From Streptomyces sp. NRRL S-337 (GTDB taxonomy: Bacteria > Actinomycetota > Actinomycetes > Streptomycetales > Streptomycetaceae): 64,000 nt of DNA. A program made the translations under genes and the position numbers. Of this stretch, positions 17,117 through 43,232 are shown piece after piece (the stretch's first letter is position 1; every line of letters begins with the position of its first letter). The notes beneath the pieces were generated by a model. The model ran no database searches. It was given only the letters and a program-made list of their open reading frames with translations, and was not told the DNA's origin. The stretch lies in contig NZ_JOIX01000004.1 of assembly GCF_000720175.1 (NCBI RefSeq), positions 143,409 to 207,408 on the forward strand, read 5' to 3'.

Positions 17117-17240
17117 TGTGGACAAACCCACGTCTGTGGATACTTCCGTTACCCGTGTGGGTCTACGGTCGCGCGGCGCGGCAGCCGCACGACCACGGCC
17201 GATGATCCCTTGCAGCAGAGAGCGACGTTTCACGTGAAAC
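17117..17240. promoter_or_regulatory. parA upstream region: DnaA boxes and parS
   Basis: A perfect DnaA box (TGTGGACAA, 17117-17125), a second 8/9 box (TGTGGATAC, 17135-17143) and an exact parS (17227-17240) lie immediately upstream of, or at the very start of, parA depending on which start codon is used. The gap to rsmG (17243-17382) lies upstream and shows no recognisable gene. Confidence 0.7.
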
Positions 17241-20854: not shown

Positions 20855-21229
20855 TCGGGGGCTCCAGGAATGCTTGTTGTCTCAAGAGAGACAGATGTGG
20901 GGCGTCGCTGGCTGTCACCGTGCGCCCACGAGTAGCTCGCAACGCCTAAGTGCACCGCTACACGATCACCAGAGCGCGATCTTTGCCCATCGGAGGCAGG
21001 CGGCAGCAGCCATCGACAACTCGACCTGGTCACGGTACGCGCGGCTACGCCATCCGGTCAAACCGGCTCCATGTGAGCCCGCGCGGTCCGTCGTCAGGAC
21101 ACACTATGCACAGCCTGTGGACAACAACTTGAATCCCCAGGCCCGCCCTGACTACCGTGGCTGAACTCCGATTCCTTCCCGCCCGTCCTGAGAATCACAC
21201 ATTCGTGGGACTGTGAGAGAGCGTGCCCT
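20855..21229. promoter_or_regulatory. rpmH-dnaA divergent region with DnaA boxes
   Basis: This 375-bp gap carries the rpmH promoter on the left and the dnaA promoter on the right. An exact DnaA box (TGTGGACAA) at 21116-21124 and a weaker facing one (CTATGCACA) at 21104-21112 lie about 105 bp before dnaA, consistent with autoregulation known for Streptomyces dnaA. No gene was found in the gap. Confidence 0.75.
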
Positions 21230-23125: not shown

Positions 23126-24034
23126 GACCGCGTCCGACGCGCCGCCTCGGACCGACCGCGCCCAGGGCGCCCGGGACCCGCTCCTGGGCGCCCTTCGCCG
23201 TTTCGGGGCCGCCCGGCGCGGTGAACGACGCGGTGTACGACGCACCGCGCCGCCGTCCCTGGGCTGTGGAGCGCCGCCGGCCGTGTTCGATTCCGTGCCT
23301 GGTCACGGCCTCTCTCCACAGATTGGGCAAGAATCTTCCGTCCACACCCTGGGGAGAGGAAAGTTATCCCTGTGGGATCCACAGGCGGGCTCTCCGAAGG
23401 GAGATCGTAGGAGGTCAGCCGGGTGTGGATTTGTGGCCAACCTCTCTCCACAGGCTGTGGACAGAGATTTCGTCCACAGGGGAGTGGATCACTTGTCCAC
23501 CGCCCGCCCACAGCAAAAGCGCCGTTGTCCCCAGCGATCACCGGCTTCTCCACACCGCTGTCCACTGTTCGGCAACGCAACACCCCCTCTCACCGGGCTG
23601 AGTGAAAGCCGTCACACCAAGGTGATGGGTTGGGCTGTGGGGAACGTGGGTAAAGCTGGGGATGGCACTGGGGAGAACTGCCCGTCCCCTGTGCATCGGG
23701 TGTGCAGAACTTTCCGCGGTCCACAGCGCAGGCGGTTTATCCACGGGCCCCGCCCACAGCCGCGGTGGACAAAAAACCGAAGCTGACCTGCGCAGACGCA
23801 GTTGTCCACGGTTTCCACAGGGCCTACTACTACGACCACGGATATCTACCGGGGAACTCGTTCGGAAACGGGGCCTGTGCACAACTCGGCGGCCCGGCGT
23901 CCGGCGTCGCCCGAGTCGACTTGACCCCGAGCCGCACCGACTGTCGGTGGCGTGCGTCAGACTGGTCTCCGGCAACTGAGCCGACGACGAAGGCCAGCAG
24001 GGCGTAAGCCAGCAACAGCAGGAGGCGGTTTCCG
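23126..24034. other. oriC: Chromosomal replication origin oriC
   Basis: The 909 bp between dnaA and dnaN hold about 22 candidate DnaA boxes in both orientations. A left group spans 23265-23566 (for example 23312-23320, 23338-23346, 23456-23464, 23470-23478, 23493-23501, 23546-23554) and a right group 23636-23884 (for example 23717-23725, 23737-23745, 23764-23772, 23802-23810, 23876-23884). The best matches are 8/9; none is an exact TTGTCCACA or TTATCCACA. Spurious frames cross it, but none resembles a protein. The layout matches the described Streptomyces oriC. Confidence 0.95.
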
Positions 24035-25314: not shown

Positions 25315-26193
25315 ATGGAGCTCGGTCTCGTCGGTCTCGGCAAGATGGGCGGCAACATGCGCGAGCGCATCCGCCGCGCCGGCCACACCGTCGTCGGATA
25401 CGACCGCAACCCGGACCTGGCGGATGTGAACAGCCTCCAGGAGCTTGTGGACAAGCTGAAGGGTCCGCGGGTGGTCTGGGTCATGGTGCCGGCCGGCGCC
25501 GCCACCCAGTCCACGATCGACGAGCTGGCCGAGCTGCTCTCGCCCGGCGACATCGTCGTGGACGGCGGCAACTCCCGCTGGACCGACGACGAGAAGCACG
25601 CCGAGGAGCTGAAGGCCAAGGGCATCGGCTTCGTCGACTGCGGCGTCTCGGGCGGCGTCTGGGGCCTGGAGAACGGCTACGCGCTGATGTACGGCGGCGA
25701 GAAGGACGACGTCGCCAAGGTGCAGCCGATCTTCGACGCCCTCAAGCCGGAGGGCGAGTTCGGCTCGGTGCACGCCGGCAAGGTCGGCGCCGGCCACTTC
25801 GCGAAGATGGTCCACAACGGCATCGAGTACGCGATGATGCAGGCCTTCGCCGAGGGCTGGGAGCTGCTGGAGAAGGTCGACTCCGTCACGGACGTGCGCG
25901 AGGTCTTCCGCTCCTGGCAGGAGGGCACGGTCATCCGCTCCTGGTTGCTCGACCTGGCCGTCAACGCCCTCGACGACGATGAGCACCTGGACAAGCTGCG
26001 CGGTTATGCACAGGACTCCGGCGAGGGCCGCTGGACTGTGGAAGCCGCCATCGACAACGCCGTGCCGCTGCCCGCGATCACGGCCTCGCTCTTCGCCCGC
26101 TTCGCGTCCCGCCAGGACGACTCCCCGCAGATGAAGATGATCGCCGCGCTGCGCAACCAGTTCGGTGGCCACGCGGTCGAGAACAAGAAGTAA
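25315..26193 (+). CDS. gnd: 6-phosphogluconate dehydrogenase, short (YqeC/GntZ-like) type
   Basis: A 292-residue NAD(P)-dependent dehydrogenase that oxidatively decarboxylates 6-phosphogluconate to ribulose 5-phosphate. The Rossmann motif [12 protein letters not shown] starts at residue 4, and the catalytic segment [17 protein letters not shown] holds the lysine. It is much shorter than the 470-residue enteric enzyme. ATG 25315 is preferred over an upstream GTG at 25297 because AGAGGG precedes it. Two consensus DnaA boxes lie within the gene. Confidence 0.88.
25446..26012. other. Two consensus DnaA boxes inside gnd
   Basis: TGTGGACAA at 25446-25454 (exact Streptomyces consensus) and TTATGCACA at 26004-26012 (exact match to the general TTATNCACA consensus). 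They are 550 bp apart and both in coding sequence, 1.6-2.1 kb from the right edge of oriC. Confidence 0.6.
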
Positions 26194-41823: not shown

Positions 41824-42741
41824 ATGGACCAGGTGCCAGGCAGCCCGCAGGAACCGCAGGACGCGCGGGGAGATGACGGCCTGCCCGGCTGCTACCGCCA
41901 TCCGGACCGCCCGAGCGGCATCCGCTGTACCCGCTGCGACCGCCCGATCTGCCCCGAGTGCATGGTCAGCGCCTCGGTGGGTTTCCAGTGCCCGGACTGC
42001 GTACGCGGCGGCAGCGGCACCGGCCATTCCCCGAAGGCGACGGCCCCGCGCACGCTCGCGGGCGGCGCGGTCGCGGCCGACCGGCGACTGGTCACCAAGA
42101 TCCTTCTGGGACTGAACGCCGCGGTGTTCGTGGCCGTGCTGGCCACCGGCGGCCAGACGAGCCCGCTGCCCGACCGGCTCGACCTGCTGGGTCGGGCCTT
42201 CGACCCGGCCCGCCTCCAGCTCGTCGGGGTCGCCGAGGGCGAGTGGTACCGCCTGCTGACCGCGATGTTCCTGCACCAGCAGGTCGCGCACATCGCGTTC
42301 AACATGCTCTCGCTGTGGTGGCTGGGCCCGCCGCTGGAGGCGGCGCTCGGCCGGCTGCGGTTCACCGCGCTGTACCTGCTCTCCGGTCTGGGCGGCAGCG
42401 CGCTGTCGTACCTCCTCGCCGCCCAGAACCAGCCCTCGCTGGGGGCGTCCGGCGCGATCTTCGGCCTGCTGGGGGCGACCGCGGTGCTGATGCGCCGGCT
42501 GAACTACGACCTGAAGCCGGTACTGATCCTGCTCGCCCTCAACCTGGGCTTCACGTTCCTGTGGCCGCACATCGCGTGGCAGGCGCACGTCGGCGGGCTG
42601 ATCGTGGGCGCCGCGGTGGCGTTCGGGATGGTGCACGCACCGCGCGACCGCCGGAACGCGGTGCATCTGGTGACGTGTGCGGTGGCGGTGCTGGCGATCG
42701 CCGCGGTGGTGTGGGTACGGACCCTCCAGCTGCTGGGCTGA
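41824..42741 (+). CDS. Rhomboid-family intramembrane serine protease with N-terminal zinc ribbon
   Basis: A 305-residue protein. Residues 20-65 hold CYRHPDRPSGIRCTRCDRPI, then CPEC and FQCPDC, a B-box-like zinc-binding module. The rhomboid core has about seven helices, with HIAFNMLSLWWLG, the serine motif GASGAIFGLL and the histidine in AWQAHVGGLIVG. The catalytic Ser/His pair is intact, so it should cleave membrane substrates; none is known. ATG 41824 has GGGGACC upstream. It converges with crgA across the DnaA-box cluster. Confidence 0.88.
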   Translation: MDQVPGSPQEPQDARGDDGLPGCYRHPDRPSGIRCTRCDRPICPECMVSASVGFQCPDCVRGGSGTGHSPKATAPRTLAGGAVAADRRLVTKILLGLNAAVFVAVLATGGQTSPLPDRLDLLGRAFDPARLQLVGVAEGEWYRLLTAMFLHQQVAHIAFNMLSLWWLGPPLEAALGRLRFTALYLLSGLGGSALSYLLAAQNQPSLGASGAIFGLLGATAVLMRRLNYDLKPVLILLALNLGFTFLWPHIAWQAHVGGLIVGAAVAFGMVHAPRDRRNAVHLVTCAVAVLAIAAVVWVRTLQLLG

Positions 42742-42758
42742 GGGGTCGTCCCCACACG

Positions 42759-42959
42759 TTGTCCACAATGCGTGGCCGATCTTGTGCAAGCTGTGCGGAA
42801 CTCTGCTTCCGGATGGCTCTGACCTGTGTTTCCGCAGGAAGAGCCGGGGAGGGAGCGGCCGGACCGGAGGGCCCGGCCGATCACACCGGCGTCAACCACC
42901 GGAGGGTTATCCACAGATCTTCTGAAGTTTTCCCCGGCTGTGGATAACCGTGTGGATGG
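42759..42959. other. Cluster of consensus DnaA boxes between rhomboid and crgA
   Basis: Three exact boxes lie in this 236-bp convergent gap: TTGTCCACA 42759-42767, TTATCCACA 42907-42915 and, inverted, TGTGGATAA 42939-42947; a fourth, TGTGGATGG 42951-42959, has two mismatches. Convergent genes leave no promoter to regulate, so the likely role is DnaA titration. Studies of S. coelicolor described DnaA-box clusters near oriC whose deletion increased initiation; I recall them as H69, H24 and D78, and this may be one of these. Confidence 0.75.
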
Positions 42960-42977
42960 CCTTGGGCAGGGCTTGCG

Positions 42978-43232
42978 CTACTTCCACTGAGTGGATACGC
43001 CGAAGCCCACCGCGATGAAGCCGAAACCACAGACGATGTTCCAGTTGCCCATGGCCGCGATCGGCAGATCGCCCTCGGACACGTAGAACAGCACGATCCA
43101 CACAAGACCGATCAAGAACATCGCCAGCATCACAGGCGCCACCCAACCCCGACCGGAGTTCATCTTCAGGTTGGTGGTCTTCGCCGGCGGCGGCGTGAAA
43201 TCGTCCTTCTTGCGGATCCGTGACTTCGGCAC
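42978..43232 (-). CDS. crgA: Cell division protein CrgA
   Basis: An 84-residue membrane protein from GTG 43232 with AGGAGAG upstream. The basic start [14 protein letters not shown] is followed by two helices ([20 protein letters not shown] and [19 protein letters not shown]). CrgA inhibits FtsZ ring formation during reproductive growth in Streptomyces and recruits divisome proteins in mycobacteria. It is divergent from the DUF881 gene. Confidence 0.94.

Follow-up and report, generated by a model that had tools for sequence, protein, structure and literature searches.

How actinobacteria restrain DnaA after initiation is, to our knowledge, poorly understood. In Streptomyces coelicolor, three DnaA-box clusters near oriC, named H69, H24 and D78, were reportedly described by Smulczyk-Krawczyszyn et al. 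in 2006, with D78 having the strongest effect. In Mycobacterium tuberculosis, DnaA binds five regions best, namely oriC, Rv0010c-Rv0011c, the region upstream of dnaB (Rv0057), Rv3843c-RVnc0040 and rpmH-dnaA, and the accessible part of that report places DnaA binding 3′ of crgA by in vitro DNA affinity purification sequencing (IDAP-seq) and electrophoretic mobility shift assay (EMSA) (PMC7738170). According to the same partial text, chromatin immunoprecipitation sequencing (ChIP-seq) in M. smegmatis recovered homologs of these five regions, mutants of the Rv0010c-Rv0011c site were similar to dnaA mutants, and the authors saw no obvious correspondence of the Rv0010c-Rv0011c and Rv3843c-RVnc0040 sites in other species (PMC7738170). 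Here, we analyzed a stretch of 64,000 nucleotides from Streptomyces sp. NRRL S-337 (the window), in which a cluster of DnaA boxes occupies the gap at 42742-42977 between a rhomboid-family gene and crgA. We consider it likely that this gap holds the form taken in Streptomyces by an ancient DnaA-binding control element near oriC, one that is present class-wide and in some further classes of the phylum.

The rhomboid-family gene and crgA converge on the gap, which contains three exact and two degenerate DnaA boxes (Table 1); the exact boxes are those given in the preliminary description of this DNA. We took oriC to be the dnaA-dnaN gap, which places the cluster about 19 kb from the origin, again in agreement with that description. 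The oriC region itself contained 10 boxes with one mismatch and no exact box. Across the genome (9.06 Mb in 227 contigs), we counted 43 copies of TTGTCCACA and 34 of TTATCCACA, and a Poisson estimate gave an expectation of about 1e-4 exact-box triples within 189 bp genome-wide. Several DnaA boxes of the high-affinity type are clustered in the crgA gap beyond chance, and the three-box cluster is due to something other than chance.

We analyzed conservation in the region 3′ of crgA from 155 Streptomyces loci, 150 of them distinct. Because 100 of these regions were chosen from about 150 rows with the best crgA match, out of the 389 genomes with crgA among 392 of the genus, close relatives are over-represented. 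Within 600 bp 3′ of crgA, at least two exact boxes were found in 150/150 distinct gaps and at least three in 147/150, while in the first 200 bp exact boxes occurred in 153/155 loci and the exact reversed motif in 9/155. A second count, independent of the choice of loci, identified an inverted pair of exact boxes with a 10-40 bp spacer in 310 of the 392 genomes and in none when the pattern was reversed; this count requires exact boxes and misses the longest spacing class.

The distance between boxes A and B, in the 146 gaps with an exact pair, was 31-35, 42-46 or 52-57 bp, with one outlier at 26 and one at 66 bp and none at 36-41 or 47-51 bp; the remaining four gaps had no exact TTATCCACA A-B pair and stand outside this count. 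These classes step by about 11 bp, one turn of DNA. Of the 141 gaps in which the B-C distance was measured, 111 had 146-150 bp and 25 had 154-161 bp. On a quick tree of the 252-base crgA gene, the spacing class changed at least 15 times for A-B and at least 13 times for B-C. GATC adjoined box B in 138/150 gaps, and a GGGGA-type inner box, scored with a loose pattern set, was present in 135/150. A putative partner site, TTGACGCCGGTGTGA, was found with at most three mismatches in 138/150 gaps (reversed motif, 1/150). Its distance from box B was measured in 136 gaps, and in 133 of these it followed that box by 11-12 bp; the motif was derived from the same Streptomyces sequences on which it was counted. 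It is similar to the right half of a class-wide palindrome, TTACACnnnTGTnATT, described below. The preliminary description had made its reading depend on the conservation of box number and spacing in related strains, and both are conserved across Streptomyces.

Table 1 Features of the crgA gap and its surroundings in the window (Streptomyces sp. NRRL S-337).
Feature	Position	Strand	Basis
Box C, exact DnaA box TTGTCCACA	42759-42767	+	Sequence scan
Box B (box 3 of the element), exact DnaA box TTATCCACA	42907-42915	+	Sequence scan, R1 alignment
Box A (box 1 of the element), exact DnaA box TTATCCACA	42939-42947	-	Sequence scan, R1 alignment
Inner degenerate box TTTTCCCCG (box 2 of the element), predicted to bind DnaA	42928-42936	+	Sequence; aligned to model R1
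Degenerate box CCATCCACA	42951-42959	-	Sequence; within R1 match 42924-42963
B-A spacer, conserved: GATC adjoining box B and TTTTCCCC-type degenerate box	42916-42938
Putative partner site, Streptomyces form, TTGACGCCGGTGTGA(T) in the sense of crgA, adjoining box B	42880-42896	-
Best R1 match, DnaA-box part only, without palindrome	42924-42963	+	19.3 bits, E 4.7e-5 in the window
Rhomboid-family gene, converging on the gap	41824-42741	+	PF01694
crgA, converging on the gap	42978-43232	-	PF06781
oriC region, dnaA-dnaN gap, limits approximate	23126-24007		Open frames

The boxes are also found beyond the genus. In other genera of the family, they lay within 450 bp of crgA in 34 of 35 regions and within 200 bp in 30 of them. 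Outside the family, one-mismatch boxes occurred in the first 200 bp 3′ of crgA in 39/42 loci, compared with 0-5 in four neighboring 200-bp windows (41-42 loci) and 4/42 for the reversed motif; more distant loci gave 26/30, and the two class sets pooled gave 65/72. The palindrome TTACACnnnTGTnATT was present in the same 200 bp, with at most three mismatches, in 54/72 loci, compared with 1/72, 0/71, 1/72 and 4/71 in the neighboring windows, 0/72 for the reversed motif and 0-4/72 for five scrambled motifs. An alignment of 44 elements revealed that the distance from the palindrome to the last TGTGGA box is constant within a few bases, and that the order in the sense of crgA is box 1 (+), degenerate box 2 (−) and box 3 (−).

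This arrangement bears on whether the inverted boxes are simply the hairpin of a bidirectional transcription terminator serving the two converging genes. Boxes A and B do form a 12-bp inverted repeat, with a fold of -33.3 kcal/mol, but we regard such a terminator as very improbable. The fold is ordinary compared with shuffled sequences (z -1.33; 22/200 at least as stable), and a scan of 42600-43100 identified no terminator-like site and no stable GC hairpin followed by a T-tract. Moreover, boxes 2 and 3 point in one direction, the element as seen across the class does not form a single hairpin, and the loop sequence is conserved. A search for structured RNA returned only two sub-threshold miRNA matches, which we attribute to chance.

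We then built a sequence-only model, R1, from 44 loci, two rows of which come from a genus code (f4/g4) called mycobacterial on the basis of near-identical named CrgA loci. R1 was applied genome-wide, the best match being the best of 70 (78-genome test) or 36 (phylum draw) first-look candidates per genome under strict filters. Of 78 genomes of the class outside the training set, 66 had their best match no more than 600 bp 3′ of crgA (65 of these on the same strand), and eight, all belonging to one family (f25), had it away from crgA. In the genome of Streptomyces sp. NRRL S-337, the crgA gap was the best scored match, and another genome of the genus, G013, had a match at its crgA gap. In the phylum draw, 85/149 genomes had a match at E ≤0.01. 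For other classes, the best match lay within 600 bp 3′ of CrgA in 21 of 24 genomes chosen by score from the 30 best-scoring (to 24.1 bits), with six, mostly partial matches, left out (G866, G834, G858, G780, G879 and G786). Of the three exceptions, G842 and G833 had the crgA-side site among their weaker listed matches, and G868 had none listed there. The presence of the element across the class is well tested, and beyond the class it was observed for the strongest matches only.

These results also address chance, or the shared ancestry of unselected intergenic sequence, as the source of the pattern. Streptomyces are closely related, so that counts within the genus are not independent, but the element is conserved where CrgA identity is only about 33-59%, the neighboring 200-bp windows contain hardly any boxes, and R1 found the site in 66 of the 78 genomes outside its training. 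We therefore consider this explanation scarcely credible.

The eight genomes in which the best match lay away from crgA are small genomes of family f25 that carry crgA elsewhere and have kept the element. The gene order in one of them (L306) is a gyrA-like end (by eye), cyclophilin, rhomboid, element and iron-sulfur oxidoreductase, and another (L311) has the same order on the opposite strand. When the crgA regions of seven relocation genomes were inspected (3.3 kb each), six contained no exact box and the seventh (L316) contained a single one about 0.8 kb from crgA. The element lies 9.6-10.2 kb from dnaA in the three relocation genomes measured, where crgA is about 30 kb from dnaA, and about 10.0 kb from dnaA in two relatives whose crgA still adjoins it. 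Since the element stays about 10 kb from dnaA where crgA has moved, the position that has been kept is near dnaA and the origin, not near crgA. In a wider comparison covering 41 of 44 genomes (G508, G428 and G588 were left out), crgA was 10-95 kb from dnaA in 39. In the two others, with crgA 177 and 569 kb from dnaA, the palindrome was missing, as were the boxes in the 569-kb genome; this is weak evidence, because some genomes with a nearer crgA (for example, L293 and L296) also have no palindrome. Family f3 provided a second kind of separation from crgA: in G393, an R1 match (C12:194223-194278, beyond locus L258) lies about 1.8 kb 3′ of crgA, and by eye another gene appears to separate the two. 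In G650 (L324) of the same family, exact boxes lie about 0.7 kb 3′ of crgA.

The relocation genomes weaken the proposal that DnaA controls the expression of crgA or the rhomboid gene from this site, whether through a 3′ roadblock, antisense control or an effect on a promoter. DnaA is a transcription factor elsewhere, and in most genomes the element is within a few hundred bases of the 3′ end of crgA. However, the gap in the window is convergent, and a simple scan of 42600-43100 detected no sigma-70-like promoter, a scan that is weakly informative as shuffled sequences also gave about zero. In addition, expression of Rv0010c and Rv0011c was unaltered in dnaA mutants, as stated in the accessible part of the report (PMC7738170). 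We thus find gene regulation very unlikely; a role on the rhomboid side is less well excluded, because in L306 and L311 the element is still next to the rhomboid gene. The suggestion in the preliminary description that location ties together crgA, sporulation division and replication is unsupported for the same reasons, the element being away from crgA in eight genomes and crgA expression being unchanged in dnaA mutants.

We compared the Streptomyces gap with the mycobacterial site. The R1 element was present in the crgA gap of 80/80 loci fetched with mycobacterial CrgA, one being partial at a contig end (L361); 74 of these loci are titled mycobacteria or Mycobacteriaceae, six are others, and two come from one genome. 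The Rv0010c-Rv0011c site, in which we take Rv0011c to be crgA, resembles the Streptomyces gap in its place, 3′ of crgA and near dnaA, and in being a cluster of DnaA boxes. R1 recognizes both as the best site, in Streptomyces sp. NRRL S-337 by the DnaA-box part only. In mycobacteria, a strong palindrome precedes the boxes, whereas the Streptomyces palindrome is degenerate and lies on the other side of box B, with a third exact box about 148 bp away. Because an intact TTACACnnnTGTnATT beside box 1 is absent in Streptomyces, the claim that the two sites work alike is stronger than the claim that they are identical.

Other DnaA boxes were noted in the same genome. A cluster of two exact and two degenerate boxes (L006, C4:129929-130017) lies between dnaB (Pfam) and a divergent transporter-like open reading frame (by eye). 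By inspection, at least three exact boxes within about 310 bp occur at one place other than the crgA gap, C4:53584-53895 (L235:8585-8896), where four exact boxes lie between pheA and serS, about 112 kb from dnaA. This second cluster may be the counterpart of the mycobacterial Rv3843c site. The cluster beside dnaB matches the mycobacterial DnaA site upstream of dnaB, as reported in the accessible text (PMC7738170). Such correspondences suggest that Streptomyces and mycobacteria may share much of one set of DnaA sites. Within the window, an exact box at 21116-21124 lies just upstream of dnaA, as expected for autoregulation, and further single exact boxes near oriC are at 25446-25454 and 17117-17125. 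The literature covered on Streptomyces DnaA-box clusters and on DnaA sites near crgA/Rv0010c contained no earlier description of the shared element; this coverage took in few subscription papers and did not include the S. coelicolor study of 2006.

Several observations weigh against an element shared so widely. The palindrome consensus derives from the very loci that gave the count of 54/72, so that the genome-wide search with R1 is the fairer test. Among the 72 class loci, seven had no boxes in the first 200 bp and 18 had no palindrome; of the 35 regions from other genera of the family, eight contained the class palindrome with three mismatches or fewer and 12 contained the Streptomyces form. 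In Streptomyces itself, the palindrome is degenerate and R1 matches the DnaA-box part only. The 78 test genomes often come from the same families as the 44 training loci, and four of them (G398, G524, G474 and G650) had no R1 match among the matches listed (at least 25.5 bits); G398, G524 and G474 still carry an exact box just 3′ of crgA, and G650 carries exact boxes about 700 bp further. The R1 match in Streptomyces sp. NRRL S-337 has a modest E-value (0.0067 genome-wide), two of the four same-genus genomes listed (G056 and G067) had no match at E ≤0.01, and the same was true of 64/149 genomes in the phylum draw, in which few of the weak matches were assigned a position.

The conserved number, order and spacing of the boxes, together with the published mycobacterial binding, strongly support the view that the gap is a cluster near oriC that binds DnaA and has a function other than in transcription. 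To this extent the preliminary description, in which the gap looked like a titration site, is supported, although titration by itself is one possibility among several. High-affinity boxes acting as a passive sink would delay re-initiation through box number and affinity, needing neither a complex nor a partner, and the exact boxes near oriC fit this, as does E. coli, for which the accessible part of one report describes box enrichment near oriC and titration (PMC12371093). Sinks do not, however, need the conserved box order, orientation, helical phase, spacer and outside palindrome, and we judge simple titration to be possible but rather unlikely. The fixed order, the 11-bp phasing and the linked palindrome suggest an organized complex and not a loose set of sinks. 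Judging from sequence comparison, the crgA-gap element is probably an old, shared replication control site rather than a quirk of one Streptomyces, and most likely a DnaA-regulating site of the datA, DARS or titration kind.

Given its order, phase and palindrome, DnaA would assemble on such a control element into an ordered oligomer, and a second, dimeric protein would probably occupy the palindrome. The resulting complex would change the amount of active DnaA reaching oriC. As the element duplicates soon after initiation, the simplest effect would be that DnaA is removed or inactivated immediately after the origin fires, which would limit re-initiation, with titration or a datA- or DARS-like reset of the bound nucleotide as candidate modes. 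More tentatively, with somewhat less than an even chance in our view, the Actinomycetota may share one ancient composite element near oriC, consisting of a palindrome for a dimeric protein and three DnaA boxes in helical register, which would reset DnaA as datA and DARS do. Its versions would then include the cluster in Streptomyces, the site in mycobacteria at which clinical isolates recurrently carry mutations, and the sites in genomes of 1.2-1.5 Mb, and the palindrome-binding partner would be a missing replication regulator. If the crgA-gap element is what its sequence suggests, one control site would be common to all of the class and to some of the phylum beyond it. This would also explain a mycobacterial DnaA site that its authors could not obviously match to other species, and would turn attention to the putative partner protein.

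Compared with other known systems, the crgA gap may correspond to the S. coelicolor H69 cluster, and the dnaB and pheA-serS clusters may correspond to H24 and D78. The E. coli sites datA, DARS1 and DARS2, in the partial accounts available, are likewise non-coding clusters of DnaA boxes combined with sites for other proteins that alter DnaA activity. These E. coli sites use IHF and Fis, whereas the palindrome of the crgA gap fits neither of two candidate owners judged from printed motifs: FtsR was rejected because its motif differs, and MtrA because its motifs are direct repeats, unlike the palindrome. The elements of the class have a palindrome at fixed spacing from the boxes, which may be a partner site of the kind found in datA and DARS.
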